Source of the DNA: Nitrobacteraceae bacterium AZCC 1564
GTDB lineage: Bacteria; Pseudomonadota; Alphaproteobacteria; Rhizobiales; Xanthobacteraceae
Direction: 5' to 3'
DNA length: 64,000 bases
NCBI GenBank assembly: GCA_036924835.1
Contig: JBAGRR010000001.1
Span: forward strand, 4,665,001 to 4,729,000
Every line of letters begins with the position of its first letter. The stretch's first letter is position 1. The notes under the pieces were generated by a model, which made no database searches, was not told the DNA's origin, and saw only the letters and a program-made list of their open reading frames with translations. Positions 13,472-49,718 of the stretch are shown here, piece by piece. The translations under genes were made by a program, and so were the position numbers.

Positions 13472-13635
13472 CTAGTGTCCCGTCTCCGAATAACCGACCA
13501 ATTTGCCGCGCGCTCGCACGGTTATTCGGAGACGAAAGGACACTAGCAAATCAAAATACTAGTGTGGCTTCGTCTCGCAATTGCCGATAAGAGACTGCCG
13601 CAAGAGAGGTCGGCAATTGCGAGACGCCACACTAG
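13472..13635. repeat. CTAG double-hairpin element, family 1
   Basis: Hairpin A (13472-13546) has arms CTAGTGTCCCGTCTCC.. and ..GGAGACGAAAGGACACTAG. The spacer CAAATCAAAATA is 13547-13558. Hairpin B (13559-13635) has arms CTAGTGTGGCTTCGTCTCGC.. and ..GCGAGACGCCACACTAG. In each hairpin only the arm facing the spacer has three extra bases (AAA; CTT). The reverse complement of the whole unit matches 18920-19084, including most loop bases. It lies between two co-directional operon genes. Confidence 0.9.
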
Positions 13636-13674
13636 CGCCATCGCCGAAAAAAAACATTTCAGGGAGAGAAACGC

Positions 13675-14442
13675 ATGACCTTGTTCGATCTGAGCGGCAA
13701 AGTCGCCGTCGTCACCGGCTCGACCCGCGGTATCGGCCGCGCCATCGCGGAGCGTATGGTGGAGCATGGCGCTAAGGTAGTGATCTCATCGCGCAAGCAG
13801 GATGTCTGCGATCAAGTGTCGAAGGAGATCAACGCGCAGTATGGCAAGGACAAGACCATCGCCATTGCCGCTAACATCTCCAGCAAGGAGAATCTGCAGA
13901 ACCTTGTCGACGAGACCAACCGAGCCTTCGGCAAGATCGACGTGCTTGTCTGCAACGCGGCATCGAATCCATATTACGGCCCGATGGCCGGCATTTCCGA
14001 CGACCAGTTCAGCAAGATCCTCAGCAACAACATCATCGCCAACAACTGGCTGATCAGCATGGTGGTGCCGCAGATGATCGAGCGCAAGGATGGTTCGATC
14101 ATCATCGTCTCATCGATCGGTGGTCTGAAGGGCTCGACCACCATTGGCGCGTACTGCGTCTCGAAGGCGGCTGATATGCAGCTCGCGCGCAATCTCGCCT
14201 GCGAATACGGCAAGCACAACATCCGTGTGAACTGCATCGCGCCGGGCCTGATCAAGACCGATTTCGCCAAGGCGTTGTGGGATAATCCCGAGACGCTGAA
14301 GGCCTCGACCGCACGCTCGCCGCTGCTGCGCATCGGCATCCCAGACGAAATCGCCGGCGCAGCCGTGTTTCTCGGATCGGCCGCGGGCAACTTCATGACT
14401 GGGCAGTCAATGGTGATCGACGGCGGTGCGACCATCAGCTAA
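13675..14442 (+). CDS. SDR-family oxidoreductase (last gene of the ACAD operon)
   Basis: A 255-residue classical SDR with VVTGSTRGIGRA at residues 13-24, NAA motif (VCNAASNPYYGP), catalytic YCVSK, and the C-terminal FMTGQSMVIDGGA. It resembles the DHRS4/FabG-like dehydrogenases that often follow ACAD10/11 modules. AGGGAGAG lies upstream of ATG 13675. It was probably part of the operon starting at 9543, but 209 bp containing a double-hairpin repeat now separates it from the phosphatase gene, so read-through may be reduced. Confidence 0.9.
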   Translation: MTLFDLSGKVAVVTGSTRGIGRAIAERMVEHGAKVVISSRKQDVCDQVSKEINAQYGKDKTIAIAANISSKENLQNLVDETNRAFGKIDVLVCNAASNPYYGPMAGISDDQFSKILSNNIIANNWLISMVVPQMIERKDGSIIIVSSIGGLKGSTTIGAYCVSKAADMQLARNLACEYGKHNIRVNCIAPGLIKTDFAKALWDNPETLKASTARSPLLRIGIPDEIAGAAVFLGSAAGNFMTGQSMVIDGGATIS

Positions 14443-14490
14443 AGGCGGGTCAGGACTTGCGTCGCAACGGACTTTGCTGTCGCGGCGCAC

Positions 14491-14565
14491 CTCGTGTCCC
14501 AATTCCGAGGTTCGCTGGAAGGACTCCGGGGGATAGCGGAGCGAACTTCTGAACCACCGCACTGG
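14491..14565. repeat. Outer-arm-only remnant of the CTAG element (family 2)
   Basis: The left arm CTCGTGTCCCAATTCCGAGG resembles the outer right arm (inverted) of the elements at 39147 and 49551. The right arm GCGAACTTCTGAACCACCGC plus ACTGG is the inverse of their outer left arm. Inner arms, bulge bases and spacer are absent and the CTAG ends are mutated. It has the same deletion form as the remnant at 8005, from another stem family. Confidence 0.65.
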
Positions 14566-14633
14566 CATGCTGGTGAAGCAGGCATCTGAAAACCGGGGAT
14601 GGTGAGCGCAATGTTCCATTTGCGCGCATGCTC

Positions 14634-14765
14634 TTACGCCAGGAACAATAGGCACGCGCCCGCGATTGCCAGCGGGGCCATGCAAATGGCGCCCAGAACC
14701 AACGATATTGGATCGGCCTCGTTCTCGTTGTTCTCAGTTGCGTGAACTGGCTTGTCTTCGCGCAC
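14634..14765 (-). CDS. Possible 43-residue membrane microprotein
   Basis: A GTG-started frame on the minus strand encodes an acidic N-terminal part (REDKPVHATENNENEADP) and one hydrophobic segment (ISLVLGAICMAPLAIAGACL). GGAGG lies 4 nt before the GTG, slightly close. The clean split into polar head and single membrane span argues for a real small protein; no homolog is known to me. It lies alone between convergently placed transcripts. Moderate to low certainty. Confidence 0.4.
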   Translation of the reverse strand: MREDKPVHATENNENEADPISLVLGAICMAPLAIAGACLLFLA

Positions 14766-14902
14766 GATGCCTCCAAATCATCTCAAGCGGCGTGCGTTGC
14801 TGCGTTAAGCGCATGCGCAACTCGAGAGAACGTGAAGGGTTTCAAGAGATTTCAGGTAGATCAGGTTGTTTTTGTTTTTCCCGACCGTGGAAAGGAAAAC
14901 AA

Positions 14903-15277
14903 ATGTGGAAATTATCCTTGGCAATTTCGACACTCGTCACATCACTGGCTGTGTTGTCGCCGCCGGCGGTTGCGCAGGACTATCCGTTCTGCCTGCGGCG
15001 GAGCGATGAAGCGGGACCGGGAACTTGTTACTATCGAAGCTATAGGCAGTGCAGCGCGGCAGCGTCGGGAATTAACGGGTACTGTTACCCCAATCCGCGC
15101 ATGGCATACGGTTCCTACCGAAGGCCGATGCGCTACGCGCCCGGACCCGGCATTCCGGGGAATCCCTATCCGTCTGGCGGCATTCCGGGGAATCCCTATG
15201 CGGGCGGCGGGCCTTCAGGCGCCAATCAGGCCACCAATCGTCCGAACGCCAGCAATGAAATTGGCAGTGGCCGCTGA
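14903..15277 (+). CDS. DUF3551 secreted protein
   Basis: A 124-residue protein: signal peptide (residues 1-25, ...LAVLSPPAVAQ), then the DUF3551 core with conserved Cys residues (YPFCLRRSDEAGPGTCYYRS ... QCSAAASGINGYCYPNP), then a Gly/Pro-rich tail containing a duplicated GGIPGNPY segment. DUF3551 proteins are abundant in Bradyrhizobium relatives and have no established function. ATG 14903 is supported by AAAGGA upstream. A strong stem-loop follows at 15340. Confidence 0.8.
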   Translation: MWKLSLAISTLVTSLAVLSPPAVAQDYPFCLRRSDEAGPGTCYYRSYRQCSAAASGINGYCYPNPRMAYGSYRRPMRYAPGPGIPGNPYPSGGIPGNPYAGGGPSGANQATNRPNASNEIGSGR

Positions 15278-15339
15278 CGGGTGGTGGTCGTGGTAACGCG
15301 CTCTGCTCGCTAGATCGAACGACGCCATCTTACTGGCCG

Positions 15340-15372
15340 TACCGATCACCGAGAAAGACTCGGTGATCGGTA
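15340..15372. terminator. 14-bp stem-loop between convergent genes
   Basis: TACCGATCACCGAG (15340-15353) pairs perfectly with CTCGGTGATCGGTA (15359-15372) over loop AAAGA. It lies between the DUF3551 gene and the end of the large outer-membrane gene and could stop transcription from both sides. No T-run follows. Confidence 0.7.
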
Positions 15373-15428
15373 TCGGTGGACGCTTCACGCGAACCGGGTG
15401 TCAGGTTGCTCGAAAACGCTCTCAAACT

Positions 15429-18386
15429 TCATTCGCTGAAGCGATAGTTCACACCCATGGTCAGGAGATGTTCGCGTGTGCGGATCGCTTCGGTCGATAC
15501 CGCGCTGATCACGTTGGGAACGGTGAAACTCACAGACCGCTCGCCGAAGTCGACATACTTGTATTCGGCGCTGACCGACCAACGGGATGACAGTGCGTGT
15601 TCGACGCCTGCGCCGACGGTCCAGCCCAGATTCGTTGCGCTGGTCGAGGACAACGAACCGCCGGGAATGCCATTCGCATTGAGCGTGTAGGTTTCACGCG
15701 CCAGCGCACCGCCGGCCTTCACATAGAAGAGATTCCGGCTGGCCGCATATCCAAGGCGCCCCGTCAGCATCCCGAGATTGCGGGTGGCATTCTCGCAATT
15801 CAGGCCGGCGAAGAAGAATGGCATGGCGCCGAAGCAAGTCTGCGTTCCCTCGAGCTGGCTGAGTGAGCCTGAGAGTTCGGCGCCGACCACCATCTTGCCG
15901 GTCTGATAGTTGAAACCGATCTGAGCACCGCCCAGTGCGCCGCCGACGTGCACCCGATCGCCAGTTGGCGGAGGTGGGAACGGATCGGACCAGTTGCTGC
16001 TGCCAAATCCGGCTCCGAGATGGCCGCCCACATACCAACCGGTCCAATGCGCAGGTGGAGCTTCTTCTGCCGCGGCGACACGTGCCCGATCAGGCCCCCC
16101 GAACTTGTAAGAGGCTTGCAGGAAGCCGCCGTAACGCTCGCTCGTGTATTTGAGCGGCGACAAGTTAGCCGCGCCTGGGAAGCGTGTTGCGGCCTCATCC
16201 GTGGCGAAGAACCAGTAACGCCCGCCAATGCCGAGGTTGAACTGGTCGGTGACGGCATAGGACAAGATGGCTTCAATCTGCGTCCCCCAGCCGTGTCCAG
16301 GCGCAGGAGCCGGGTTGATGTCTGTTCGATTCCAGTGATTGTCCACAGTGGCATGATTGACATAGGGCAGGTAGGCGGCATCCACCTCCAGCCTCCAGCG
16401 ATCTGCAAGTCCAAATCGTGCGTTGAGGCCCAGCGCCGCACCGCGCCATTGCTCGGTTTCCGTCAAACCAAGGGAATCAGCGGGAGCCGGCACGCCGCAC
16501 GCGGTCGCGTCGTAACCAAGCTGTACACAGCCGAACCCGCGGCCGCGCTGATAAAAGTAGCGGTAGCCGACATATGCGCCGAGCTTGCTGTCGTCGCCGC
16601 TTAGCAGAGTTGTACCGAGGTCGAGGCTTCCGTAGCGCAGGCTGCTGTCACGCACCTCATGCACCGTGTTGGAATACGGAATATTGGCCGGGCTGAAATC
16701 TTCGTCGTGCAGCGTGCCGTTCACCAGTGACCCAAGACCGAAGTTACCTTTGATGAACAGGCCGCTGGTGTGATCAAGGCGGGCGAACGTTTCCGCCGAA
16801 TGCCCGTTCATGTCGCTATAGATCAGGCGGGAGTTCAGTTGTGTGGTCTTGTTCGGAGCGTACAGGTCCTTCTGAATACCGCCGTTGCTGAACCAGTAGC
16901 GTGCGCCGGTCTCGATGAGCCAATCGGATACGCGTTGCGGAGCCTTAAAGAGCAAGGGGCCATGAACCGAAGCTGTCGATGTCGGGTCGACGCCGAAGCG
17001 GTAGTTCAGGCCCATCTTGAACAGATGCGTCCGCTGTCCGATGCCCACATTTGACGTGTTGCCGAATTGATCGCTGAGTTCGACAGTCTTTGTTCCGAAG
17101 TCCAGGTAGTTATATTCGAGCTTACCTGACCACGCCGGCGTGAAGGCGTATTCGACGCCCGAGCCCAGCATATACCCCCAGCGCAAAGGGCTGCCCTTGT
17201 AGGCATTGGGTAGATCCTCGCGAGTGGCAGTGTCGCTCTCCTTCGCCCACGCGGCACCGGCTTTTCCATAAATGAGGATATTGTCGTGAGCCCATCCGAG
17301 GCGGCCTGCGATTGTGCCGAGCGCGTCGATATGGCTGTGACAGTTGAAATTCCAGGAAAATTTAGGCGGTACGAAAGTCGACGCACATTTGGCGAAGCCG
17401 TCAAGGTTTGACCAGCTCGCATCGATTTCGCCGCCGATGACCAAAGATCCTGCCTGACGGTTGAAGCCGATCTGTCCGCCCGCGATCATGCCATCCGCTG
17501 TGCCCGAACCGGGAAATCCAACATTGGAGATAGCAGCAAGGGGGCCGGTCGCAGACTTCCAATCCGTTGTTCCCCAAGCGCCGCCGGTATGCACGCCCGC
17601 ATAAACGCCATCCCATACGCGGGATGGCGGCGCATCTGATGATGGCTGGGACGCGCGAGCGAATGGCGCTCCGGTGAGTTTGGTGTTTAGCCCCAGCTTG
17701 ACGAGATGGATGTTCTGATCGAGCCCGACATTCACCCTGTTGCCGTTCGGATCTGTAAGGTCGACCCGATCCCCGAATCCGAGGTAGTTGTATTCAATCT
17801 TGGCCGAGGTCAGCGGTGAGAATGCGTATTCCACGCCGCCACCAAGCGCGAGGCCGAGACGCGTTTGCCGGCTTTGCAGCATTTCGGGCGGATAGGCTCC
17901 GAGCGTAGGTGCTATCGTCAGCTTTTCATAGAGCCAGCCGCCACCGGCCTTTCCATAAACGAGAAAGTCGCCGGTTGCGTAACCAAGCCGGCCAGTTAGC
18001 GTTCCGAGCGCCTCGATGTTCGCATCGCATGTGGAAAACGCTCTGGCACACTGCACGCTGCCGTCGATATCGGCGAAGCTGCCTTCTGCTTCGATACCTA
18101 GAACGAAATTCCCGCGCTGATAATTGTAGCCAGCCTGAGCGCCACGCACGATGCCGCCGCCGGTGAAGTGCCCCGCGAATGGAATAGCGAGAGGAGCACC
18201 ACTCGCGTCGTTCCAGTCGCTTCCCGAAATCGCGTTGCCGATATGCGCCCCGACATAGAGGCCGGTCCAATCAGATGTTGGCGCTGTCTGTGCCTGAGTT
18301 TCACCAATCAACGCAAAAAAAAGACATGCGGATGCTCCGCATGACCAAGAAAACTTATCCACGGAGCCCCCGCCTAAACGCCTCAT
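15429..18386 (-). CDS. Four-barrel outer-membrane protein (three Omp25/31-like plus one omptin-like domain)
   Basis: A 985-residue protein. After a signal peptide (about residues 1-33) come an Omp25/Omp31-like barrel opening DWTGLYVGAHIG, a second opening VWDGVYAGVHTGG, a different barrel of about 270 residues (WLIETGARYWFSNGG ... SERYGGFLQASYKF) with omptin-like features, and a third Omp25-like barrel opening HWTGWYVGGHLG and ending MGVNYRF. Single Omp25 proteins are about 200-250 residues, so this is about four times the normal length. Terminal MG(L/V)NYRF-type strands recur at each small-barrel end. I prefer ATG 18386 to TTG 18401. An alternative view is one large multi-strand barrel. Confidence 0.85.
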   Translation of the reverse strand: MRRLGGGSVDKFSWSCGASACLFFALIGETQAQTAPTSDWTGLYVGAHIGNAISGSDWNDASGAPLAIPFAGHFTGGGIVRGAQAGYNYQRGNFVLGIEAEGSFADIDGSVQCARAFSTCDANIEALGTLTGRLGYATGDFLVYGKAGGGWLYEKLTIAPTLGAYPPEMLQSRQTRLGLALGGGVEYAFSPLTSAKIEYNYLGFGDRVDLTDPNGNRVNVGLDQNIHLVKLGLNTKLTGAPFARASQPSSDAPPSRVWDGVYAGVHTGGAWGTTDWKSATGPLAAISNVGFPGSGTADGMIAGGQIGFNRQAGSLVIGGEIDASWSNLDGFAKCASTFVPPKFSWNFNCHSHIDALGTIAGRLGWAHDNILIYGKAGAAWAKESDTATREDLPNAYKGSPLRWGYMLGSGVEYAFTPAWSGKLEYNYLDFGTKTVELSDQFGNTSNVGIGQRTHLFKMGLNYRFGVDPTSTASVHGPLLFKAPQRVSDWLIETGARYWFSNGGIQKDLYAPNKTTQLNSRLIYSDMNGHSAETFARLDHTSGLFIKGNFGLGSLVNGTLHDEDFSPANIPYSNTVHEVRDSSLRYGSLDLGTTLLSGDDSKLGAYVGYRYFYQRGRGFGCVQLGYDATACGVPAPADSLGLTETEQWRGAALGLNARFGLADRWRLEVDAAYLPYVNHATVDNHWNRTDINPAPAPGHGWGTQIEAILSYAVTDQFNLGIGGRYWFFATDEAATRFPGAANLSPLKYTSERYGGFLQASYKFGGPDRARVAAAEEAPPAHWTGWYVGGHLGAGFGSSNWSDPFPPPPTGDRVHVGGALGGAQIGFNYQTGKMVVGAELSGSLSQLEGTQTCFGAMPFFFAGLNCENATRNLGMLTGRLGYAASRNLFYVKAGGALARETYTLNANGIPGGSLSSTSATNLGWTVGAGVEHALSSRWSVSAEYKYVDFGERSVSFTVPNVISAVSTEAIRTREHLLTMGVNYRFSE

Positions 18387-18483
18387 TCCCCGTGTGAACA
18401 ATAGAGTGAGTCGCCCGGGTTACTCCAGAAATCTCATGTGACAAATGCAGCGCAGAGGCGGCTGACCGCAAACGCGCCGCTGA

Positions 18484-18885
18484 TCAGCTCTTGGCCTTCT
18501 TCGCCTTCTTGGCGGTCTTCTTGGGAGTCTTGTTGGCGGGCGTTTTGGCCGGCTTGGCAGCCTTCACAGGCTTTGCCGGTTTGTCCTGCTTGGCAGGCGC
18601 AGCCGCAACGGGCTTGGGGGCGGCGTCCTCGATAGCCCGGCGCATCGCGCGGGCGTAGCTGTCGGCGACGTTGTCGGCGGACATCTGCAGGCGCTTGGCG
18701 GCGGCGGAGCCGTGCTCCATCGCATCCTTGGCGAGCTGCTTGTATTGGTCCTTGGCTTCCTTGGTCTTCGCCTTAGCCGCGAGCTGCAGGTAGTGGTCGC
18801 GCCGCTCCTTGGTGGCCGCAACCAGGCTCTTATTCTGTTCTTTCGCAACGCGTCGGATGACGACGTCCAGATCGGCTCCCGCCAT
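18484..18885 (-). CDS. Histone H1-like lysine/alanine-rich protein
   Basis: A 133-residue protein. The N-terminal part (about 1-85) is charged and helical (VVIRRVAKEQNKSLVAATKE; QLAAKAKTKEAKDQYKQLAK). The C-terminal part (about 90-133) is a KPAKPVKAAKPAKTP / KKTAKKAKKAKS tail like histone H1 and bacterial HC1-type nucleoid proteins. It probably binds DNA non-specifically. ATG 18885 has AGAGGGAAG upstream; the longer open frame runs into the repeat at 18920 and is not real coding. The repeat starts 35 bp upstream and so overlaps its promoter region. Confidence 0.75.
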   Translation of the reverse strand: MAGADLDVVIRRVAKEQNKSLVAATKERRDHYLQLAAKAKTKEAKDQYKQLAKDAMEHGSAAAKRLQMSADNVADSYARAMRRAIEDAAPKPVAAAPAKQDKPAKPVKAAKPAKTPANKTPKKTAKKAKKAKS

Positions 18886-18919
18886 GTAAATCTTCCCTCT
18901 GTTCTCAGCCCGCAGCTTT

Positions 18920-19084
18920 CTAGTGTGGCGTCTCGCAATTGCCAACCTGTCTTGCGGCTGATCTCTTATTGGCAATTGCGAGACAAAGCCACACTAGCAT
19001 TTTGATTCTGCTAGTGTCCTTCGTCTCCGAATAACCGTGCGAGCGCGCCGCAAATAGGTCGGTTATTCGGAGACGGGACACTAG
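18920..19084. repeat. CTAG double-hairpin element, family 1, inverted copy
   Basis: Hairpin 18920-18997 (arms CTAGTGTGGCGTCTCGCAAT and GCGAGACAAAGCCACACTAG), spacer CATTTTGATTCTG (18998-19010), hairpin 19011-19084 (arms CTAGTGTCCTTCGTCTCCGA and CGGAGACGGGACACTAG). Inner arms carry the extra bases (AAA; TT here). It matches the reverse complement of 13472-13635 across stems, spacer and most of the loops. It lies upstream of the histone-like gene. Confidence 0.9.
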
Positions 19085-19096
19085 CCCGATCCTGAT

Positions 19097-19124
19097 CGTC
19101 ATTCGCCTGTCATTGGCGATGACG
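19097..19124 (-). terminator. Stem-loop after the IclR gene
   Basis: CGTCATTCGCC (19097-19107) pairs with GGCGATGACG (19115-19124) with one bulged T. It lies downstream of the minus-strand IclR gene. No T-run, so a weak call. Confidence 0.4.
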
Positions 19125-19210
19125 GGATCGCCCGCAGGCGTGCTGCGGAGCATTCTATGGGGCTTGAGTTTCCGGCGTGTTAACCCGGTGAGGGCGCGCC
19201 GGGCTTGGCG

Positions 19211-20017
19211 CTACGCAAGAGGTTGAAGGACTGCGCTGCTGTCAGGTTGCGGGGCAGCGGCTGGCACCAATGATCGCTCGATCGCCCGCGCGGCGCGCTT
19301 CAATGCCGGCACGAAGGAGAGGGCGCGTTCAAGCGGTAGCCGTGTGATCGGCCCGTGCACGGCAACGGTGGCGCAGAGGCGATTGCGCGCGTCGTAGATC
19401 GGCACGGCGGCAGCGGCCATGCCTTCCATGAACTCGCAATTGTCGGTGCCGACCGCCGTCTTGCGGATCATTGCGACTGCGCCTTCAATCTGCGAAGCGG
19501 TGGTGAGGGTGTGCGGCGTATAACGCTGCAACGGCTGCGAGCGCAGCAGCGTTTTGCGCAGCGATGGCGCGAACGCGAGAAAGATCTTGCCGCTCGCCGT
19601 GCAATGCAGCGGCACATGCGAGCCGACTTTCAAACGGAATTGCAGCGGCCAGTCGGACTCCACGCGATCGAGATAAATCAGCTTATCGCCGTCGATCATG
19701 GTGATGTTGCAGGTCTCGCCGATCTCTTCCACGAGCGAGGAGAGGATCGCGCGCCGCGGCGCCAGCGCAAACGAATGACGCATGCCGTCGAGCGCAAGAC
19801 TCGTGAGACGATGGCCGATCTCGTAACGCCGTCCATCCACCGCGCGCCGCACGAATCCGAGCTGTTCAAGCAGCGAGACGAAGCGATGCGTCGTCGCTTT
19901 CGGCAATTGGATCGCCGACATCAGGTCATTCAGCGTCGGCGGCTCATCCGCTTTCGCGATGATCTCAAGCAATAGCAGTGCACGTTCCGAGACCGAGGAT
20001 GTTGTCTGCATCGACAT
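19211..20017 (-). CDS. IclR-family transcriptional regulator
   Basis: A 268-residue IclR regulator. The N-terminal winged helix (about 8-68; SERALLLLEIIAKADEPPTL, LPKATTHRFVSLLEQLGFVR) is followed by the GAF-like effector domain (about 85-250; LHCTASGKIFLAF, FMEGMAAAAVPIYD). It is divergent from the GMC oxidoreductase with 114 bp between starts and most likely controls the GMC/MHS pair. The start is ATG 20017 or 20011; the N-terminal extension to 20086 overlaps the promoter of the neighbour. Confidence 0.88.
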   Translation of the reverse strand: MSMQTTSSVSERALLLLEIIAKADEPPTLNDLMSAIQLPKATTHRFVSLLEQLGFVRRAVDGRRYEIGHRLTSLALDGMRHSFALAPRRAILSSLVEEIGETCNITMIDGDKLIYLDRVESDWPLQFRLKVGSHVPLHCTASGKIFLAFAPSLRKTLLRSQPLQRYTPHTLTTASQIEGAVAMIRKTAVGTDNCEFMEGMAAAAVPIYDARNRLCATVAVHGPITRLPLERALSFVPALKRAARAIERSLVPAAAPQPDSSAVLQPLA

Positions 20018-20131
20018 CGCAAGCCGTCCCAATGAGTGAGTTCGCGAGGATTCATCCACGTTGACAGAACTGCGTATGACATTCAACTTTTTAGGACAAA
20101 ACGTCTCAATAAATGGAATTTTTGGGCAGGA

Positions 20132-21748
20132 ATGTCAGAGCAGGTGGAATACATCGTTGTGGGCGCTGGATCGGCGGGATGCGTGCTCGCCAATCGCCTC
20201 AGTGCCGATGGGCGCAACAAGGTGCTGCTGCTGGAGGCAGGACCGAAGGACAACTATCTCTGGATCCACATTCCCATCGGTTATGGGAAGACGATGTTCC
20301 ACAAGGCCTACAACTGGGGCTTCTACACAGACCCCGAGGCCAACATGAAAGATCGCCGCATCTACTGGCCGCGCGGACGCGGCCTCGGCGGCTCAAGCTC
20401 CATCAATGGACTGATCTTCATTCGCGGCCAGCGCGAGGACTACGATCACTGGGCGCAGCTCGGCAATCAAGGGTGGGATTGGAACAGCATCCTGCCGTAC
20501 TTCATCAAATCCGAACACAACAGCCGCGGCGCGAGCGCCACGCACGGCGGCAGCGGACCATTATGGTCGTCCGACATCGCCGAGAAGAACGAATTAATGG
20601 AAGCGATCATTCGCGGCGCAGGCGAACTCGGCGTGCCGCGCACGAATGACTTCAATAGCGGCGATCAAGAAGGCGTCGGCTACTTCCAGCTCTTCACCCA
20701 CAACGGATGGCGCATCAGCTCGGCAGTGGCTTATCTCAAGCCTGCGAAGGGACGCAGCAATCTGCGGATCGAAACTGATGCGCAGGCGACAGGCCTGATC
20801 ATGCAGGGCAAGCGCGCGGTCGGCGTCAGGTACATCCAGAACGGTGAGGTGAAGGAGGCACGTGCCGCGCGGGAGGTGATCCTCTCCGCGGGCGCATTGC
20901 AGTCGCCGCAGCTCTTGCAGCTTTCCGGCATCGGTCCTGCGCCGTTGCTGCAGCGCCACGGCATCAATGTCGTTCACGATCTGCCGGGCGTCGGGCGCAA
21001 TCTGCAGGACCATCTGCAATTCCGCCTGATGTTCCGCGTCTCGAAGCCGATCACCACCAATGACGATCTGCGTACGCTCGCAGGGCAGGCGCGCATCGGC
21101 CTGAAGTGGCTGATGAAGGGCACCGGGCCGCTCGGCATCGGCATCAATCAGGGTGGCCTGTTCACGCGCGTGCTGCCGGGATCGACGACACCGGACATCC
21201 AGTTTCACTTCAGCACATTGTCGGCGGACATGGCGGGCGGCAAACCGCACGACTGGTCGGGTTGCACCTTCTCGGTGTGCCAGTTGCGGCCGGAGTCGCG
21301 TGGTGTGGTCGATATCAAGTCGGCCGATCCGCTGGAGCCGCCGTCGATGCGGCCGAACTATCTTGCGGCCGAGACCGACCGCATCTGCGCGGTGGAGTCG
21401 ATCAAATATGCCCGCCGTCTTGCAGCAACCGATGCGCTGAAGAGCTACATCGCGGGCGAATACAAGCCCGGCGCGTTGGTGCAATCCGACGACGAGATTC
21501 TTGATTTCGCGCGCGGCAACGGCGCGACGATCTTCCATCCCTCCGGCACCTGCAAGATGGGCTCGGATCCCATGGCCGTGACCGATGCACGTTTGCGCGT
21601 GCACGGCATCGACGGGCTGCGCGTGGTGGATTGCTCGATCATGCCGACACTGGTGTCGGGAAACACTCACGCACCGGTGGTGATGATCGCAGAGAAAGCC
21701 TCCGACATGATTCTCGCGGACTCGAAAGAAAGTTCGATGGCGGCTTGA
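20132..21748 (+). CDS. GMC-family oxidoreductase (choline dehydrogenase-like)
   Basis: A 538-residue FAD-dependent GMC alcohol dehydrogenase. FAD-binding VVGAGSAGCVLANRL at residues 9-23, GMC signature 1 (GRGLGGSSSINGLIFIRG), signature 2 (GALQSPQLLQLSGIGP), and the C-terminal active-site region with His in HPSGTCKMG and in SGNTHAPV. No signal peptide is visible, so it is cytoplasmic or membrane-associated and passes electrons to quinone or another acceptor. The following MHS transporter suggests uptake and oxidation of one alcohol substrate. Choline is not supported, since no betB/betI neighbours exist. Confidence 0.9.
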   Translation: MSEQVEYIVVGAGSAGCVLANRLSADGRNKVLLLEAGPKDNYLWIHIPIGYGKTMFHKAYNWGFYTDPEANMKDRRIYWPRGRGLGGSSSINGLIFIRGQREDYDHWAQLGNQGWDWNSILPYFIKSEHNSRGASATHGGSGPLWSSDIAEKNELMEAIIRGAGELGVPRTNDFNSGDQEGVGYFQLFTHNGWRISSAVAYLKPAKGRSNLRIETDAQATGLIMQGKRAVGVRYIQNGEVKEARAAREVILSAGALQSPQLLQLSGIGPAPLLQRHGINVVHDLPGVGRNLQDHLQFRLMFRVSKPITTNDDLRTLAGQARIGLKWLMKGTGPLGIGINQGGLFTRVLPGSTTPDIQFHFSTLSADMAGGKPHDWSGCTFSVCQLRPESRGVVDIKSADPLEPPSMRPNYLAAETDRICAVESIKYARRLAATDALKSYIAGEYKPGALVQSDDEILDFARGNGATIFHPSGTCKMGSDPMAVTDARLRVHGIDGLRVVDCSIMPTLVSGNTHAPVVMIAEKASDMILADSKESSMAA

Positions 21749-21788
21749 AAGACGAAACGACAAACAAAATGAAACGGGGAGAGGAACA

Positions 21789-23111: not shown

Positions 23112-23139
23112 CGTAACACGCATCTCGACACGACAAACA

Positions 23140-31934: not shown

Positions 31935-32101
31935 CTAGTGTTCCGGTTCTGACATTCGTATCATCTCGCAGCAGGCACTTAACGAATGTCAGAACCAAAG
32001 GAACACTAGCAAATACAAAACTCTAGTGCGGTTTTGGATCTGACGTTCGTATGATGAGCTCGCGGTCGATACTGATACGAACGTCAGATCCACCGCACTA
32101 G
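31935..32101. repeat. CTAG double-hairpin element, family 3
   Basis: Hairpin 31935-32009 (CTAGTGTTCCGGTTCTGACA ... AGAACCAAAGGAACACTAG), spacer CAAATACAAAACT (32010-32022), hairpin 32023-32101 (CTAGTGCGGTTTTGGATCTG ... CAGATCCACCGCACTAG). The inner arms again have the three extra bases. The last CTAG is shared with the next element. Confidence 0.88.
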
Positions 32102-32264
32102 TACCGCCGATTTGAAGTCCCTGCATCACTCTCGGCAAACGCGCGACAGGGACTTCAAATCGAAAGCGGTACTAGAATCATAGCTTTGCTAGTACCCTTT
32201 GCTTTCCGAAGTTCGTTAAGATGAGTGCTGCGACGTATCACGAACTTCGGAAAGCGGGTACTAG
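32098..32264. repeat. CTAG double-hairpin element, family 4, fused to the previous element
   Basis: Hairpin 32098-32175 (CTAGTACCGCCGATTTGAAG ... TTCAAATCGAAAGCGGTACTAG region), spacer AATCATAGCTTTG (32176-32188), hairpin 32189-32264 (CTAGTACCCTTTGCTTTCCG ... CGGAAAGCGGGTACTAG). Inner arms carry AAA/TTT. It shares one CTAG (32098-32101) with the family 3 element, and its terminal CTAG holds the stop codon of the HlyD-type gene. The two elements fill the space between the efflux genes. Confidence 0.88.
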
Positions 32265-39146: not shown

Positions 39147-39312
39147 TTAGTGTGGTGGTTCAGAAGTTCGCTTCATTTGCTCCGAGAGCCCTTCAAGCGA
39201 ACTTTTGAACCTAAACCACACTAGAATCATAGATTTCTAGTGTCCTTTCGAATCCGAAGTTCGCTAGGAGGTTCGCTGCAGTATCAGGCGAACTTCGGAT
39301 TCGGGACACTAG
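39147..39312. repeat. CTAG double-hairpin element, family 2
   Basis: Hairpin 39147-39224 (TTAGTGTGGTGGTTCAGAAG ... CTTTTGAACCTAAACCACACTAG region), spacer AATCATAGATTT (39225-39236), hairpin 39237-39312 (CTAGTGTCCTTTCGAATCCG ... CGGATTCGGGACACTAG). The inner arms carry the extra TAA/TTT. It fills the gap between two convergent genes, and its final CTAG supplies the TAG stop of the minus-strand gene. Confidence 0.9.
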
Positions 39313-42698: not shown

Positions 42699-42782
42699 TC
42701 ATCACCTTCATCTCTCTCATCCACCTGATCGGCTCGTCACAGCGTCCGCCCTGAGCGCGGACGCCAACGGAGGAACTGTGCC

Positions 42783-43724: not shown

Positions 43725-43789
43725 CGTGCTCGCGCGATAGTGCTGGTGCCTCGAGAAGTGCGGCGCAGCTTTAGAGCGTGGAAACAAAA

Positions 43790-43816
43790 AAAGGCCCCGG
43801 GGAATTCGGGGCCTTT
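43790..43816. terminator. Bidirectional intrinsic terminator
   Basis: AAAGGCCCCG (43790-43799) pairs with CGGGGCCTTT (43807-43816) over GGGAATT. On the minus strand it is followed by TTTTTTTG, making a strong terminator for the Omp25-like gene; on the plus strand it ends the SDR transcript. Confidence 0.9.
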
Positions 43817-43860
43817 AAGTTGAACTGGAGAGTTCTATAAGCTGTTCTTCTTAGTAGCTG

Positions 43861-44601
43861 TTAGTACTTGGCGAGGACGGGACCGCCCCAGTTGAAGTGA
43901 TAGTTCACGCCAACCTTCACAGTGTGGATGTCGTCCTTGAAGCTGAGAGCCTGAGCAACATTGCCTGGCTGCGTGGTGTAGAGCACGTTGGTGGTGTCGA
44001 AGTTGTAGTACTGGTACTCAACCTTCGCCGACCAGGCGGGAGCGAACATGTATTCGAAGCCGCCACCGACGGTCCAGCCGGTGTCCTTGCGATCCGTCAC
44101 AGCCGGCAGGAAGCCAGCGGTTGCCGCAAGACCGTTGTTGTCGCGGAACGCAACACCGCCCTTGGCGTAGATCAGGCCAGGACCCCAGGTGTAGCCGAGG
44201 CGGCCGGTGACCGAAGCGAGCCAATCGGATTTGTCGCGCAGCACGTCGAAGCCGTCGGTGAACGAACGACGGTTGTTCGAAAGGCCGCTGATCTGACCTT
44301 CGATACCGATCAGCCAATTCGGAGCGAACTGGTAGTCAGCACCGACCTGACCACCGCCCAGGAACGCAGCATCGCGGCTGCTGCCCGAAAGCAGCGGGTC
44401 GGTGGTGGCGAAGCTGTTGTCGCCGCCGAAGGCAGCGCCCAAGTGCGCACCGACATAGAAGCCGGTCCAGTTGTAGATCGGTGCAGGCGGCGCATACACC
44501 GGAGCCTTGGTGTAGGTGCGGGCCGGCAGGTCGGCCGCGAAGGAGGCGGTCGAAGCGAGGACAGCAGCGGAGGCTGTCAGTAGAGCGATACGGATACGCA
44601 T
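43861..44601 (-). CDS. Omp25/Omp31-like outer-membrane beta-barrel protein
   Basis: A 246-residue 8-strand barrel. The signal peptide (residues 1-22, ending SFAADLP) is followed by a proline-rich linker and the diagnostic YNWTGFYVGAHLGAAFGGDN, then GGGQVGADYQFAPNWLIGIE and the C-terminal strand VKVGVNYHFNWG. Family members stabilise the envelope and are abundant surface proteins in Rhizobiales. ATG 44601 has GGGGAAG upstream. It is a normal single-barrel relative of the giant protein at 15429. A T-tailed terminator follows. Confidence 0.92.
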   Translation of the reverse strand: MRIRIALLTASAAVLASTASFAADLPARTYTKAPVYAPPAPIYNWTGFYVGAHLGAAFGGDNSFATTDPLLSGSSRDAAFLGGGQVGADYQFAPNWLIGIEGQISGLSNNRRSFTDGFDVLRDKSDWLASVTGRLGYTWGPGLIYAKGGVAFRDNNGLAATAGFLPAVTDRKDTGWTVGGGFEYMFAPAWSAKVEYQYYNFDTTNVLYTTQPGNVAQALSFKDDIHTVKVGVNYHFNWGGPVLAKY

Positions 44602-44978
44602 GGTCTTCCCCGAGCTTGGCGAGATCTTCCCGAAAGCGGAAGCTTCCCCCCGTTGAATTGGGCGGACGCTATCGGCCGTCCAGTTAATGGAGAATGGACA
44701 ACGGGGTCGTTGGTTGCCGCCTGCTTCGCACCGGCGCATCTTTCTCTTGGACCGTGACCAAAAAGACACGATCAAGGTCAAAATCGAAACGGTTCATTAA
44801 GCATAACGCGTTGGCGGCGTTCATGATTCGTCGGACGGCTGGTTATTCCGGTCACTCGGGCAGGGCTGCTGTCGTGAGTTAAGACTCAGGAGCCGAAGGT
44901 GGCGGGCGGAGCGACCAGCCGGGCCTGGCTTCGCAGGATAGCTCCTTCTGGGAACCTCTTTCGTTGCCGCATGGTTTG
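44602..44978. other. Divergent intergenic region
   Basis: Holds the 5' regions of the Omp25-like gene and the flavoprotein gene. No additional gene was recognised; the one clear structure is the inverted repeat at 44979-45008. Confidence 0.4.
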
Positions 44979-45008
44979 CCTCACGGGCTTGTTTCAAACT
45001 TCGTGAGG
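44979..45008 (+). promoter_or_regulatory. Inverted repeat overlapping the ribosome site of the flavoprotein gene
   Basis: CCTCACG (44979-44985) and CGTGAGG (45002-45008) form a perfect 7-bp inverted repeat with a 16-nt gap. The right arm contains GTGAGG, the likely Shine-Dalgarno sequence 8 nt before ATG 45017. It could be an operator, or an RNA hairpin that hides the ribosome site. Confidence 0.5.
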
Positions 45009-45016
45009 TCTGCCCG

Positions 45017-46093
45017 ATGAGTGAGATCGACGTTCGCAAGGGGATGCCGTCGAGCAGGATCGACAAGGAGGAATTCGTTCGGCGCTATCGTGCCCGGTTC
45101 GCCGATCCCGCGTTCGATCCGCTACAGCGCGAACTTTCAGTCATTATCGATGCAGCCTGGGATGCCTACGCGCATTCGCGCAAGTCGCCCCGCACGCGCA
45201 AGGCAGGCGAGGGATTTGCCGATCCGCAATACGATCTCGCAACGGACTGGCTCGCGGCGCGCGATGCAATTATCGAAGCTCAACGGCGCCATGACGACCC
45301 GGCGGCGCCGCCACGTATCCTGCTCATCAACGGTTCATCGCGCAGTGAGAACACGTGTCCCGGTGAAATGTCGAAGACCTGGCGTCTTCTCAAGCTGGCA
45401 GAGCCGATCTTCCAGGCCGAAGGATTCGAAGTCGAGATCCTCGATCTCTCGCGGCTGGCGAGCGAATTCGGAAAGCAGATCCATCCTTGCAAATCATGTG
45501 TGGCGACGGCGATGCCGCTGTGTCACTGGCCATGCAGTTGTTATCCGAATTACTCACTCGGTCAGACCGATGATTGGATGAACGAGATCTACCCGATGTG
45601 GGTGGCCGCGCATGGCATCATGATCATTACGCCGGTGAACTGGTATCACGCGCCGACAGGATTGAAGGCGATGATCGACCGTCTGGTCTGTGCCGATGGC
45701 GGAAATCCGGATCCGACATCGACCCACGGCAAGCATGCGATTGAGGCCAAGGCCCTCGAGATGAAGGGCTGGAATTACCCGAAGCATCTCGAAGGGCGTC
45801 ACTTCGCCGTTGTCGTGCATGGCGATGTCATCGGTGCCGAAACCTTGCGGCGTACGCTGGTGGATTGGTTGACCGACATGTATCTGGTGTCGGCGAGTCG
45901 CACCGCCGAGCTCGACGGTTACATCGGCTATGAAGAGCCTTATGCGATATCACATCAGGCGCTCGACAAGAACGAAGCTTTTCAGGAAGAGACGCGCAAT
46001 GCAGCGCGCGCTTTGGCGAACGCGGTAAAGCTCGCACGTGTTGGAAAATACGAGCAACCGGATGAAGCGCTGCAGGATCCTATCCTGAAGTAG
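45017..46093 (+). CDS. NADPH-dependent FMN reductase-like flavoprotein
   Basis: A 358-residue flavodoxin-fold protein. A helical N-terminal extension of about 95 residues precedes the FMN-binding core: RILLINGSSRSENT (phosphate loop) near 100-113, then MIITPVNWYHAPTGLKAMID. A Cys-rich insert (HPCKSCVATAMPLCHWPCSC) sits between. Family members are azo-, quinone- or iron-chelate reductases. The extension and Cys cluster make it longer than the usual 180-250 residues and may bind metal. It is preceded by the inverted repeat at 44979. Confidence 0.82.
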   Translation: MSEIDVRKGMPSSRIDKEEFVRRYRARFADPAFDPLQRELSVIIDAAWDAYAHSRKSPRTRKAGEGFADPQYDLATDWLAARDAIIEAQRRHDDPAAPPRILLINGSSRSENTCPGEMSKTWRLLKLAEPIFQAEGFEVEILDLSRLASEFGKQIHPCKSCVATAMPLCHWPCSCYPNYSLGQTDDWMNEIYPMWVAAHGIMIITPVNWYHAPTGLKAMIDRLVCADGGNPDPTSTHGKHAIEAKALEMKGWNYPKHLEGRHFAVVVHGDVIGAETLRRTLVDWLTDMYLVSASRTAELDGYIGYEEPYAISHQALDKNEAFQEETRNAARALANAVKLARVGKYEQPDEALQDPILK

Positions 46094-46233
46094 CGCCGAT
46101 GGACGGGCGACCGCTAAATCTCGATCCAAAGCTTCAAACATTAATGAGTGAGGACACAGGCTTATCGCGATGAAGCGGGGAACGATGTGGAAAGTCACCG
46201 ATTGACCGTAAGACTTCTCGAAAGGACAGTTCC

Positions 46234-46794
46234 ATGGACATCAAAGGCAAGAAAATCGCGATCCTCGCCACCAATGGTTTCGAACAATCGGAGCTGGAAG
46301 TTCCCCGCGATCGGCTCAAGAAGGCCGGCGCAACAGTTGATGTGATCTCGCTCGCAGCGGGAGAAATCAAAGGCTGGGATATGAAGGACTGGGGACGGCC
46401 GGTCAAGGTCGACAAGACGCTCGATCAGGCGTCGCCATCTGAATACGACGCCGTGGTTCTACCCGGCGGTCAGATCAATCCCGACCTGCTGCGCGTCGAG
46501 CCGAAGGCGCTGAAGTTCATCAAGGACATCTTCGATGCAAAGAAGATCGTCGCAGCCGTGTGTCACGCGCCCTGGTTGCTGATCGAGACCGGCATCGCGA
46601 AGGGGCGGAAGATGACATCGTATAAGTCGATCAAGACGGACGTCGCCAACGCCGGCGCGAAGTGGGAAGATTCTCAGGTCGTGGTCGATCAAGGTGTCAT
46701 TACATCCCGCAACCCGGGAGACCTCGAGGCGTTCAGCTCGAAGATCATCGAGGAGGTGCATGAGGGCCGCCACACGCAGCGAAGCGCGGCTTGA
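46234..46794 (+). CDS. DJ-1/PfpI family protein (YhbO/PfpI type)
   Basis: A 186-residue type-1 glutamine-amidotransferase-like protein. Catalytic Cys110 and His111 (AAVCHAPWLL) and Glu17 (GFEQSE) are present, with VVLPGGQINPDLLR before the elbow. PfpI/YhbO proteins act as stress-protective hydrolases or glyoxalase/deglycase-like enzymes. An AAAGGA ribosome site lies before ATG 46234. It follows the flavoprotein by 140 bp and precedes a small secreted protein gene; all three may belong to an oxidative or electrophile stress response, inferred from families. Confidence 0.9.
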   Translation: MDIKGKKIAILATNGFEQSELEVPRDRLKKAGATVDVISLAAGEIKGWDMKDWGRPVKVDKTLDQASPSEYDAVVLPGGQINPDLLRVEPKALKFIKDIFDAKKIVAAVCHAPWLLIETGIAKGRKMTSYKSIKTDVANAGAKWEDSQVVVDQGVITSRNPGDLEAFSSKIIEEVHEGRHTQRSAA

Positions 46795-46890
46795 GTGCGC
46801 GCCGAGCGTCTTTCCGCACATTACCATCCATCTTTCAGATTCGTGCGATGGCGCTTTGCCATGCCGTCGCACGCAACAGGGATCGATCCG

Positions 46891-47190
46891 ATGAAGAAGA
46901 TAGCTCTTGTCACTCTCGGTCTCGTGTTGGCAACGCCAGTCTTTGCACAGTCAGGCGATCCTGCCGCAGGATCCGCAAGCTCTCCCCGAATGAGCAACCC
47001 AAGCGGCAGCGGCACGTCGACGTCAGGCGGACGTGATTACAATAATGACCAGGGCCGCGATAAAATGGGTACGACGGGCAAAGCCGGTTCGCAGTACCAC
47101 AACGAGGAAGCGTCACCGCAGCCGGCGCAGCCGAACGTCACTGGCCAGCAAAAATCCGGCACGAATGCGGAAGGGCGCGCCAAGCCCTGA
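46891..47190 (+). CDS. Small secreted Gly/Ser/Asn-rich protein
   Basis: A 99-residue protein with a signal peptide (MKKIALVTLGLVLATPVFAQ) and a disordered, polar mature part (PSGSGTSTSGGRDYNNDQGR; QPAQPNVTGQQKSGTNAEG). No domain is recognised. The open frame extends back to 46795, but ATG 46891 begins the signal peptide. It is similar in style to the 70-residue protein at 37053; such proteins recur in this bacterial group. Confidence 0.65.
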   Translation: MKKIALVTLGLVLATPVFAQSGDPAAGSASSPRMSNPSGSGTSTSGGRDYNNDQGRDKMGTTGKAGSQYHNEEASPQPAQPNVTGQQKSGTNAEGRAKP

Positions 47191-47639
47191 TCGCTAACCA
47201 AACGCGGGTCATTCCAGCCAGCGCCGATGGCTCGCGTTCTGGCGGGGGTGATCACCTATTGCTAAGCGCGAGGCCTTCGCTGCGATGTTTCTTTGGCGCC
47301 CGTCCGGCAATGCACGGCCTGATTGCTTCAGGTGCGAAGCGCTACGCAATGAACGTCTCCATGAGGCCTCCAACCGTCCAGTCAAAGTGCGCGTTATCAT
47401 CTGCTGCAGTCCAGGATCATCACGATATCATTCGAGTCACCACCGCACGGCCGTCTTCAAGAATTGACCGGTCGGCGGCTATCTCGATGCCACGCGCACT
47501 GCATGCGGGCTCCGCGCGCCGCCATCTCGCCACGGGTACTCTCCCGCGCTAGGAAAGGAAGCATGACCTTCCGATTCCCGGTCGCGCAATGGACACAGTC
47601 CTCACACGCCCGGCTTGCACGCAGGACGATACACGCGCG
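47191..47639. other. Intergenic, nothing recognised
   Basis: About 450 bp with short open frames on both strands, none with a signal peptide, domain or ribosome site. It could hold the promoter of the transporter gene at 47640. Confidence 0.4.
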
Positions 47640-48518
47640 ATGACGCTAACGCCCGAGACAATATCCTTGGTGCTGGCCTTCATGGCCGCTCTCCTGTTCG
47701 GGACCGGTGTTGTCATCACGCAGTTTGGCTTGAAGTATCTGCCGCCGATGTCGGGTGCGGCCGTCAGTATGCCCGCGTTCACGGCCTTGTTCCTGCTGTT
47801 CTCGCCGATCCTGTTGCACGGGGCGACGGTGGAGTGGCGGGCCGTGCCGATCTTCATCGGCGTCGGCCTTGTCTATCCGGCGTTATTGACGACGCTGACA
47901 TTCGCGTCGAACCGCGCGCTGGGTCCAGTTGTCACTGGCGCGCTCGGCAATCTGGCGCCGTTGTTTTCAGTCGCACTTGCGGTTGCGGTGCTCGGCGAAG
48001 AGCTGCATTCGCTGCAATTGGTCGGACTCGTGGTCGCCATTGCAGGCGTGTTTCTCATCACGCTCTCGCGCGCCAGCGACAAGGGCGACTGGCGAACATG
48101 GGCGCTGCTGCTGCCGCTTGGTGCGGCGGTGCTGCGCGGCGGCATCCCGCCGATCATCAAGGTTGGGCTCGCCATATGGCCGAGCCCGATTGCCGCCTGC
48201 CTGATCGGCTATCTTGTATCGTCGCTGGTGGTGCTAACATCCGAGCGTATCCGCACAGGACGGTTTCTTCCCAAGGGACCGATCGCCGGGCACCTGTGGT
48301 TCGCTGCTGTCGGCATCTGCAACGGCGTTGCCACGTTGATGCTCTATGCTGCCGTCGGTTATGGCCGCGTGTCGGTGGTAACGCCGTTGGTCGCGACATA
48401 TCCCCTCGTCACCGTGGTGCTGAGCGCGCTCATTCTCACGCACGTCCGCATCACCGCGAAGCTCTCGCTTGGCACCGTCGCCGCTGTGGCGGGCGTCGTG
48501 CTGGTGCTGATCGGGTGA
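47640..48518 (+). CDS. EamA/DMT-superfamily transporter
   Basis: A 292-residue, ten-helix drug/metabolite transporter with two EamA repeats: the first ends near ALAVAVLGEELHSLQLVGLV, the second near VVLSALILTHVRITAKLSLG. The glycine-rich ATLMLYAAVGYGRVSVVTPL before the last helices is typical. Members export amino acids, nucleosides or drugs. I start at ATG 47640, just before helix 1; ATG 47589 would add 17 polar residues and has no ribosome site. The divergent-type LysR gene follows in the same direction 46 bp later. Confidence 0.85.
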   Translation: MTLTPETISLVLAFMAALLFGTGVVITQFGLKYLPPMSGAAVSMPAFTALFLLFSPILLHGATVEWRAVPIFIGVGLVYPALLTTLTFASNRALGPVVTGALGNLAPLFSVALAVAVLGEELHSLQLVGLVVAIAGVFLITLSRASDKGDWRTWALLLPLGAAVLRGGIPPIIKVGLAIWPSPIAACLIGYLVSSLVVLTSERIRTGRFLPKGPIAGHLWFAAVGICNGVATLMLYAAVGYGRVSVVTPLVATYPLVTVVLSALILTHVRITAKLSLGTVAAVAGVVLVLIG

Positions 48519-48564
48519 GTCTACCTGCTTGACGGGAAGGGGCGGGAGTTACACATTTCCTGCC

Positions 48565-49452
48565 ATGGAATACGCAGACCTCCGCATTCTCGAAGCTGTT
48601 GCCCGCCACGGCAGCATGAACCGCGCCGCGGCCGAACTGCACATGGTGCAATCCAATGTGACGGCGCGGATCCGCTCGCTTGAAGAGCAGATTGGAGCCG
48701 AGCTGTTTCAGCGCACCAGCCGGGGCGTGGTGCTGACGCCGGCCGGCCAGCGGCTGTTGCCCTATGCGTCGCGGGTCGGAGCGCTGCTGAAGGAAGCGCG
48801 CGAGGCTGCGCGCGATGACGGCACGCCGCGCGGACCGCTTCACATCGGCACGCTGGAAACCACTGCGGCGCTTCGGCTGCCAACCGCGCTCTCGGCCTAC
48901 ACGCAAGCCTATCCCGAGGTGGCGCTGACGCTGACCACCGGAACGAGCAGCAGCCTTGTCGAAGACGTCGTCGAGCGCTGTCTCGATGGGGCGTTCGTGG
49001 CCGCTCCTGTGCACCATGCCGATCTCACCGAAGAGGTGATGTTTCGCGAGGAGCTGATGCTGGTCACAGCGCCGGCGCTCCGCAATCCGGATGATCTTGC
49101 CAAGCAGCGCGATCTCAAGATCATCGTCTTTCGTCGTGGCTGTTCATATCGTCAGCGGCTGGAAAATCTCCTGGCGCAGAGCGGCATTCAGACCGCCCAG
49201 CCGCTCGAATTCGGCTCGCTCGATGCCATCATCGGCTGCGTCGCTGCCGGCGTCGGCATCACGCTGCTGCCGAAGGCGGTGGTATCGCCCGCGTGGCGCG
49301 ACGGGCGCGTGCTCGCGCACGAACTGCCGCCCGAGCAGGCCCGCGTCGATACGGTGTTCGTCCGCCGCAAGGACACACACCTCACCAGCACGCTTGCCGC
49401 GTTCCTGGAAATCGCACGGCCATCGCCGCTGAAACTGGCGGCCGGCGAATAG
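48565..49452 (+). CDS. LysR-family regulator
   Basis: A 295-residue LysR regulator with helix-turn-helix at residues 3-60 (ADLRILEAVARHGSMNRAAA, SNVTARIRSLEEQIGAELFQ) and an effector domain (PLHIGTLETTAALRLPTALS; FGSLDAIIGCVAAGVGITLL). ATG 48565 is set by the normal family start. It follows the DMT transporter gene closely and may regulate it. A repeat element begins about 100 bp after its stop. Confidence 0.9.
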   Translation: MEYADLRILEAVARHGSMNRAAAELHMVQSNVTARIRSLEEQIGAELFQRTSRGVVLTPAGQRLLPYASRVGALLKEAREAARDDGTPRGPLHIGTLETTAALRLPTALSAYTQAYPEVALTLTTGTSSSLVEDVVERCLDGAFVAAPVHHADLTEEVMFREELMLVTAPALRNPDDLAKQRDLKIIVFRRGCSYRQRLENLLAQSGIQTAQPLEFGSLDAIIGCVAAGVGITLLPKAVVSPAWRDGRVLAHELPPEQARVDTVFVRRKDTHLTSTLAAFLEIARPSPLKLAAGE

Positions 49453-49550
49453 CCCGTCATCACTCTCAGAGATAGCCGCTCTCTCAACAATTCGTTACCG
49501 CTGGTAGCGATCCGTTCCTATGTTTCCTGCCTGAACAGCAAAGGGCGGAG

Positions 49551-49718
49551 GTAGTGTGGTGGTTCAGAAGTTCGCATCATTTTCTCTGCGAGTCCTTCAA
49601 GCGAACTTCTGAACCTGAACCACGCTAGAATCATCTGATTGGCTAGTGTCCTTTCGAATCCGAAGTTCGCTACAGGATACGCTGCGCTATGAGGCGAACT
49701 TCGGATTCAGGAAACCAG
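49551..49718. repeat. CTAG double-hairpin element, family 2, decaying copy
   Basis: Hairpin 49551-49628 (GTAGTGTGGTGGTTCAGAAG ... CTTCTGAACCTGAACCACGCTAG region), spacer AATCATCTGATTGG (49629-49642), hairpin 49643-49718 (CTAGTGTCCTTTCGAATCCG ... CTTCGGATTCAGGAAACCAG). It has the same family and orientation as 39147, with both outer CTAG ends mutated (GTAG and CCAG). It ends 2 bp before the proposed start of the MFS gene. Confidence 0.88.

Follow-up and report, generated by a model that had tools for sequence, protein, structure and literature searches.

What kind of element builds a repeat out of two hairpins, and why one arm of each hairpin should carry extra bases, are the questions raised by a 64-kb window (the whole stretch of DNA analysed) within a 5,994,409-bp contig of Nitrobacteraceae bacterium AZCC 1564. 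The window holds six copies of a unit of about 165 bp, in which two hairpins bounded by CTAG flank a short AT-rich spacer. The original prediction took this unit for a repeated mobile element and linked its bulged hairpins to IS200/IS605-type or RAYT (repetitive extragenic palindrome-associated tyrosine) transposases. The analyses reported here bear out the first of these proposals and indicate that the unit is probably a non-autonomous composite miniature inverted-repeat transposable element (MITE) of the IS630/Tc1-mariner family, with inner ends that a 3-nt insertion may have silenced.

Structure and abundance of the double hairpin

All six copies were found at their predicted positions, with sizes of 164-168 nt. 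Two types of hairpin, called from the number of C minus the number of G at positions 8-10, are distinguished: a more C-rich one (C-type, CTAGTGTCC and similar) and a more G-rich one (G-type, CTAGTGTGG and similar). Element a (13472..13635, plus strand) runs from a C-type hairpin (13472-13546) through the spacer to a G-type hairpin (13559-13635), and element b (18920..19084, minus strand) from a G-type hairpin (18920-18997) through the spacer to a C-type hairpin (19011-19084). Elements c (31935..32101, plus strand; hairpins 31935-32009 and 32023-32101) and d (32098..32264, minus strand; hairpins 32098-32175 and 32189-32264) form a tandem pair, with c first, and have the CTAG at 32098-32101 in common. 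Elements e (39147..39312) and f (49551..49718), both on the minus strand, comprise G-type hairpins (39147-39224 and 49551-49628) followed by C-type hairpins (39237-39312 and 49643-49718). The outer boundaries of the six copies are CTAG, except for TTAG at the left of e and for GTAG and CCAG at the left and right of f, which is partly degraded. The right CTAG of d (32261-32264) is the source of the TAG stop of an emrA-like frame, and the CTAG of e at 39309-39312 likewise provides the TAG stop of the adjoining open frame.

When folded singly, the 12 window hairpins all present an unpaired run on the spacer-facing arm, as predicted; its length is 3 nt in every case except the C-type hairpin of b, where it is 2 nt. 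When copy f is folded as a whole, the outer part of its right hairpin does not appear. A covariation test on the same hairpins found pairing in 97.7% of 300 cells, compared with 72.2% in shuffles, and changes on both sides in 73 cells, compared with 22.6 in shuffles (standard deviation 3.8). Changes on both sides affect 17 of the 25 stem pairs, and this abundance of paired changes supports the stems. Rfam yielded no match at gathering score within the window.

The presence of further copies in the genome, set as a test by the original prediction, was established both with an arm pattern and with a hairpin model. The 28-nt arm pattern, with at most 3 mismatches, matched 196 times in the 6-Mb genome and never in its reversed control, and the hairpin model identified at least 150 hairpins, with matches in all 150 scored candidates drawn from 3,676 first-look candidates. 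For a detailed count we used a sample of 864 kb, made up of the window plus 40 further stretches, each 20 kb long, in which 206 hairpins were counted. This figure derives from an alignment of the best 150 of 219 matches and 23 further rows, with both-strand duplicates removed and expectation value limits that differed between the sample halves (0.01 and 1e-4), so that a few weak hairpins may be missing. By extrapolation, the genome would contain about 1,400 hairpins, amounting to some 2% of its DNA.

The arrangement of these hairpins follows a consistent grammar. The commonest clusters in the sample consist of a plus hairpin, 13 nt and a minus hairpin (38 cases), followed by the same layout with 12 nt (12) and 14 nt (5), and in seven clusters neighbouring tandem elements have a single CTAG in common. 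Among the 75 hairpin pairs with a spacer of 8-20 nt, the spacer measures 12-14 nt in 72, and 71 combine a C-type with a G-type hairpin (C-type on the left in 33 and G-type in 38, with four undecided); the element therefore has a polarity. Read from the C side, the 49 spacers of 13 nt approximate CAAANTTATGATT. About 25 bp long, the outer arms form an imperfect inverted repeat, C-type at one end and G-type at the other. The 75 whole elements have their nearest neighbour in the sample at a median identity of 90.9% (maximum 96.4%). The rule that extra bases lie on the inner arm, a further test set by the original prediction, holds for 182 of the 203 hairpins that could be parsed, the net excess being 3 nt in 144, 4 nt in 21, 2 nt in 12, 5 nt in 3 and 1 nt in 2; it is zero in 17 and negative in four, at least two of which look like strand miscalls in arrays. 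In addition, three-hairpin composites occur at L220 (4713-4953), L227 (16351-16591) and L142 (15436-15649). In each, the C-type and G-type hairpins of one subtype precede a G-type hairpin of another, and their recurrence would fit the movement of a nested composite in one piece.

The element extends well beyond the source genome. Elements were present in all 29 genomes of the same genus (the source genome included), in 15 of 32 further genomes of the family and in 4 of 40 that belong elsewhere in the order. In G044, a genome of the same family, all 47 scored candidates were hairpin matches. The copies from other families that were inspected by eye have stems of quite different sequence and preserve CTAG or one of its variants, a 3-4 nt bulge and, in most cases, a spacer of 13 nt. 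Element e was also matched over 100 nt, at about 77% identity, by eight plasmid records of Roseibium/Labrenzia, and had no match among phage records. No hairpins were found in the 15 loci scanned out of 80 obtained with the window protein encoded at 20036-21748.

The element is mobile and inserts at CTAG

The proposal of a repeated mobile element is supported by nested copies and by empty sites, the latter also set as a test by the original prediction. Elements lie within elements in arrays at L233 (3083-3429), L223 (1465-1814) and L226 (15039-15317). To locate insert-free counterparts, the flanks of each element were joined with one tetranucleotide and queried against the sample, skipping sites close to the end of a stretch. 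Of the joined sites, up to 80 in number, 14 gave a spanning match, and five of these were dropped as the element's own locus. In the nine nested insertions that remain, removal of the element minus one tetranucleotide yields an insert-free sequence that is present elsewhere in the sample. Two of the nine sit in one compound array, and the partners of these two are themselves nested arrays. A further empty site was found in G023, in which the emrA-emrB junction lacks the tandem pair c and d present there in the source genome.

Each of the nine nested insertions gains one CTAG or variant. Insertion is precise, and duplication of TA, duplication of CTAG and a CTAG carried by the element would all give the same pattern in nested sites. 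CTAG is rare in the sample, with 749 occurrences in 864 kb, of which 444 remain once element blocks and the neighbourhood of stretch ends are excluded. In G036, an IS630 element with a different end type (CTAGAGCG...) occupies the CTAG boundary of one hairpin (L308, 107-1222), and the elements are therefore also targets for other CTAG-specific insertion sequences (ISs).

Outer arms, inner arms and the ends of IS630-family elements

Compared at the sequence level, the outer arms of the element match the ends of IS630-family ISs. Thirty IS630 loci from relatives were examined, and nine gave an inverted-repeat pair with CTAG on both sides. Among them is an element of about 1.2 kb in G044 (L324), with ends CTAGTGTCCTGAACCAGAAGTTCGC and CTAGTGTCCCGAGTCACAAGTTCGC; the C-type outer arm of the source genome is CTAGTGTCCCGAATCCGAAGTTCGC. 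Over 21 interior bases, these two ends share 19 and 18 with the closest source-genome arms, compared with best scores of 13 and 14 in 500 shuffles. Five other CTAG-flanked IS630 elements, of which seven ends were compared, score 9-10. Furthermore, nine Bradyrhizobium plasmid records hold transposase relatives with 90.6-93.5% protein identity, and inverted ends were present in five of the six plasmid copies whose flanks were read. The copy of Bradyrhizobium sp. CB82 has the end letters of the G044 element and agrees with the C-type arm at 22 of 25 positions at each end. That of B. guangxiense scores 21 and 21, that of Pseudomonas sp. MPC6 19 and 21, and that of Sphingobium indicum 17 and 20; for the Roseomonas mucosa copy, no inverted ends were found in the flanks. 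The copy of Bradyrhizobium barranii presents a C-type end (21 of 25, with CTAA as boundary) and a G-type end (23 of 25), and hence the same polarity as the element. The transposases of G044, G058 and B. barranii, the three proteins scanned, match the NCBIfam IS630 and Pfam DDE_3 models.

A CTAG target fits what the consulted parts of the literature report for such ISs: a CTAG target duplicate for ISRj1 of Bradyrhizobium (PMC8692435) and, according to a title in a reference list, a preference of IS630 for the TA in CTAG (PMC2170065). The unit is also short (165 nt), non-coding and present in high copy number (206 hairpins in 864 kb), and it carries terminal inverted repeats, as a MITE does. In the mechanism that we propose, the bulge-free outer arms of about 25 bp would be the terminal inverted repeats bound and cut by an IS630-type transposase given in trans, and insertion at CTAG would duplicate TA or the entire CTAG. 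Beyond each outer arm come a loop of about 20-25 nt and the reverse complement of that arm, so that each end folds as a hairpin. In this inner copy, some three extra bases separate the end-proximal CTAGTG.CC block from the internal GAAGTTCGC-like block; they would spoil it as a transposase end, and the unit would move only as a whole.

The contrast between outer and inner arms is consistent with this proposal. Scored over 25 positions against the best of three IS ends, with the inner arm read from its own CTAG and the insert left in, the 206 hairpins give a median match of 20 for the outer arm and 11 for the inner arm; the outer arm is better in 193, equal in 2 and worse in 11. It is the insert that makes this difference, because, by pairing, the inner arm minus its extra bases would match equally. 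From the manner in which Tc1/mariner-type transposases bind their ends, displacing one half of an end by 3 bp relative to the other would be expected to abolish its use.

Lone hairpins provide a further comparison. The sample contains 14, of which eight have no net bulge and six are bulged. Inspected by eye, seven of the eight bulge-free ones are free-standing, four of them plainly composed of a C-type and a G-type arm, and one has partner remnants; among the six bulged ones, one is free-standing and the other five, including one located at the end of a stretch, retain remains of a partner or spacer. The window adds two bulge-free single hairpins, likewise read by eye and absent from the original prediction: a 63-nt derivative (8005..8067, minus strand), in which a G-type outer arm is fused to a C-type outer arm and the right boundary is CTAA, and a degraded 75-nt derivative (14491..14565, plus strand), with C-type and G-type outer arms and boundaries CTCG and CTGG. 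That free-standing hairpins are mostly bulge-free is in keeping with bulge-free arms alone serving as ends. Elsewhere in the window, a tandem GGCCGTGGTCGCGGTGGC-like repeat at 8263-8352 probably encodes a Gly/Arg-rich stretch.

Several observations weigh against a composite IS630-type MITE. The IS630 ends have neither hairpin nor bulge, and the IS thus explains neither feature. A second IS630 subgroup in G058 and G060, whose proteins are 93.6% identical to each other and 49-50% identical to that of G044, has ends that agree with an element of G089 at 21 of 25 positions at most and fit source-genome arms no better than shuffles (14-15 of 21). Within single genomes the correspondence is also poor: of six hairpins sampled in G044, four fit the G060 ends better than those of G044 itself, one ties and one, degraded, fits those of G044 better, and all eight hairpins in G060 score higher with the G044 ends than with those of their own genome. 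These 14 hairpins derive from 24 rows, after exclusion of both-strand duplicates and of the partial match at L348 16243-16291. It is therefore the IS group, and not a proven partner within one cell, to which the element is linked. A DDE_3 search found no IS of matching type in the source genome, its single hit being a fragment of 58 positions matched by neither the G044 nor the G058 transposase. Any DDE_3 match is confined to eight of the 29 same-genus genomes, the source included, and the remaining 21 have none, and G052, of the same family, has 12 DDE_3 matches and no element among 47 scored candidates. Finally, the empty site in G023 lacks a CTAG of its own.

As no mover was found in the source genome and 21 of 29 same-genus genomes have no DDE_3 match, movement must either have taken place in the past or depend on an enzyme that escaped detection or visits from elsewhere; the matching IS may have been lost, gone undetected or been supplied from outside. 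No candidate emerged from a search for a gene recurring beside the elements in 65 loci from relatives, some of them overlapping: the element itself makes up most of the largest clusters, and smaller clusters, of at most three genomes, were not followed.

Alternative explanations and related repeats

A composite IS630-type MITE may have arisen from two short palindromic MITEs that entered CTAG sites separated by 13 nt and became a single unit with a host-derived AT-rich spacer. Such an origin would account for the CTAG at all four hairpin boundaries and for the conserved spacer, and the resemblance of the spacer across several families speaks for a single founder. The same descent also underlies the doubtful possibility that the inner 3-nt insertion is a mere relic of that founder, without effect: all copies may come from one composite, of which the spacer is conserved too. 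Against a relic, a bulge of 2-4 nt has been kept across families despite stems that have diverged, as judged by eye and by their paired changes, and the free-standing single hairpins described above are mostly bulge-free.

It is unlikely that the units are IS630-type MITEs whose hairpins and bulge have been kept for a host RNA function, such as bidirectional termination or 3' end protection, with no role for the bulge in transposition. Strong stems with compensatory changes would suit such a function, as would the position of some elements just past genes; a and e, for example, begin 6 nt past open frames that have family matches. Elements at TAG stops of long open frames are no commoner than other CTAGs at such stops (22 of 76 element blocks versus 107 of 444 CTAGs, p 0.39), and an RNA role does not predict the inner-arm position of the bulge.

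CTAG or similar targets occur in some of the IS701, IS481 and IS5 groups, and a MITE of another DDE family could hence insert in the same way. This origin is quite improbable in view of the match to IS630 ends, with the qualification that end matches for other DDE families were not sought. DDE_5 (IS701) matches were detected in 4 of 61 relatives and 2 of the 29 same-genus genomes, and rve gave one sub-threshold fragment in the source genome; IS4/IS5-type transposases were not searched. The earlier statement that the window holds no helper gene stands for Y1, DDE_3, DDE_5 and rve, none of which matched inside it, and does not reach other families, which were not searched.

A REPIN-like element (a doublet of repetitive extragenic palindromic sequences, REPs) moved by a Y1 transposase of the IS200/IS605 or RAYT type, reading bulged hairpins on single-stranded DNA, would be expected to show two inverted hairpins with a spacer, a constant asymmetric bulge and compensatory stem changes like those described in the accessible text on REPINs (PMC3116915), and it is nevertheless very improbable: Y1_Tnp has no match in the source genome and matches in only 3 of 29 same-genus genomes, though the element is in all 29, and the outer arms match IS630 ends instead. 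The mover is thus probably not a Y1/RAYT enzyme, and the link drawn by the original prediction was not supported. Against a Y1 mover there is also the lack of a replichore orientation bias (14/15 versus 19/23), although the element is nearly symmetric; this lack speaks neither for nor against a double-strand mechanism. The gain of a CTAG on insertion is not decisive, since an element with its own CTAG would look the same.

Around Y1 genes, the element was present at 1 of 28 scanned loci, in G060, where an IS200-like element directly adjoins a double hairpin (L240, 1187-1857). Membership of the REPIN/RAYT class was rejected, as the unpaired GTAG or CGTC foot tag is lacking and CTAG is here paired within stems of 25 bp. 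IS200/IS605 derivatives have hairpins in the same orientation at both ends, and the inverted hairpins of the present element rule against that class as well.

Several known systems resemble the element in part. The CTAG-flanked IS630-family ISs of G044, G058, G060 and the Bradyrhizobium plasmids have similar 25-bp ends with CTAG (once CTAA) on both sides, combined in the B. barranii copy with one C-type and one G-type end, but they encode a transposase, measure about 1.15-1.2 kb and lack a terminal hairpin or bulge. RUP (repeat unit of pneumococcus) of Streptococcus pneumoniae, a 107-bp repeat with terminal inverted repeats like those of IS630-Spn1 and 110 copies in one strain, is likewise a short, many-copy repeat with IS630-like ends, and repeats inserted into each other are described there too; its host is unrelated, and the passages on RUP that were consulted do not mention a double bulged hairpin with silenced inner ends (PMC3049150). 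Like the element, REPINs and REP doublets comprise two inverted palindromes separated by a spacer, occur in many copies and show compensatory changes. According to the portions consulted (PMC3116915, PMC3733652), REPs measure 20-40 bp and mostly carry a GTAG or CGTC tag, the GTAG ones being tied to RAYT, whereas the present element has 75-nt hairpins, a CTAG target and a source genome unmatched by Y1. Br-REP1 and Br-REP2 are also palindromic intergenic repeats, of Bradyrhizobium and Rhodopseudomonas, which may be related to the present host, but, as far as the text seen describes them, have other consensus sequences and much shorter stems (PMC5082802). The double-hairpin elements of mitochondria likewise combine two hairpins in a possibly mobile unit; they are organellar, and the part of the source available discusses transposition at the DNA or RNA level without an identified mover (PMC2800124). 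No description of the element was recognised in the open-licence literature searched, ISfinder and most subscription papers being outside this scope, and the words IS630, CTAG, hairpin and bulge are absent from a review of prokaryotic MITEs.

We tentatively advance a broader interpretation, in which the unit may possibly represent a self-locked composite transposon. Two palindromic MITEs would have fused, with their internal ends permanently silenced by an insertion of 3-4 nt, such that the unit cannot split; it would have spread through several families of the order while its stems diversified by paired changes.

Overall, these results link an unnamed and very abundant repeat, making up about 2% of the genome by extrapolation, to a transposase family, and give its constant bulge a testable reason. 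They also present a genome with very many copies of a MITE in which the mover was not found. Furthermore, as insertion occurs mostly at the rare CTAG, the supply of targets and the number of elements can be compared across dozens of genomes.

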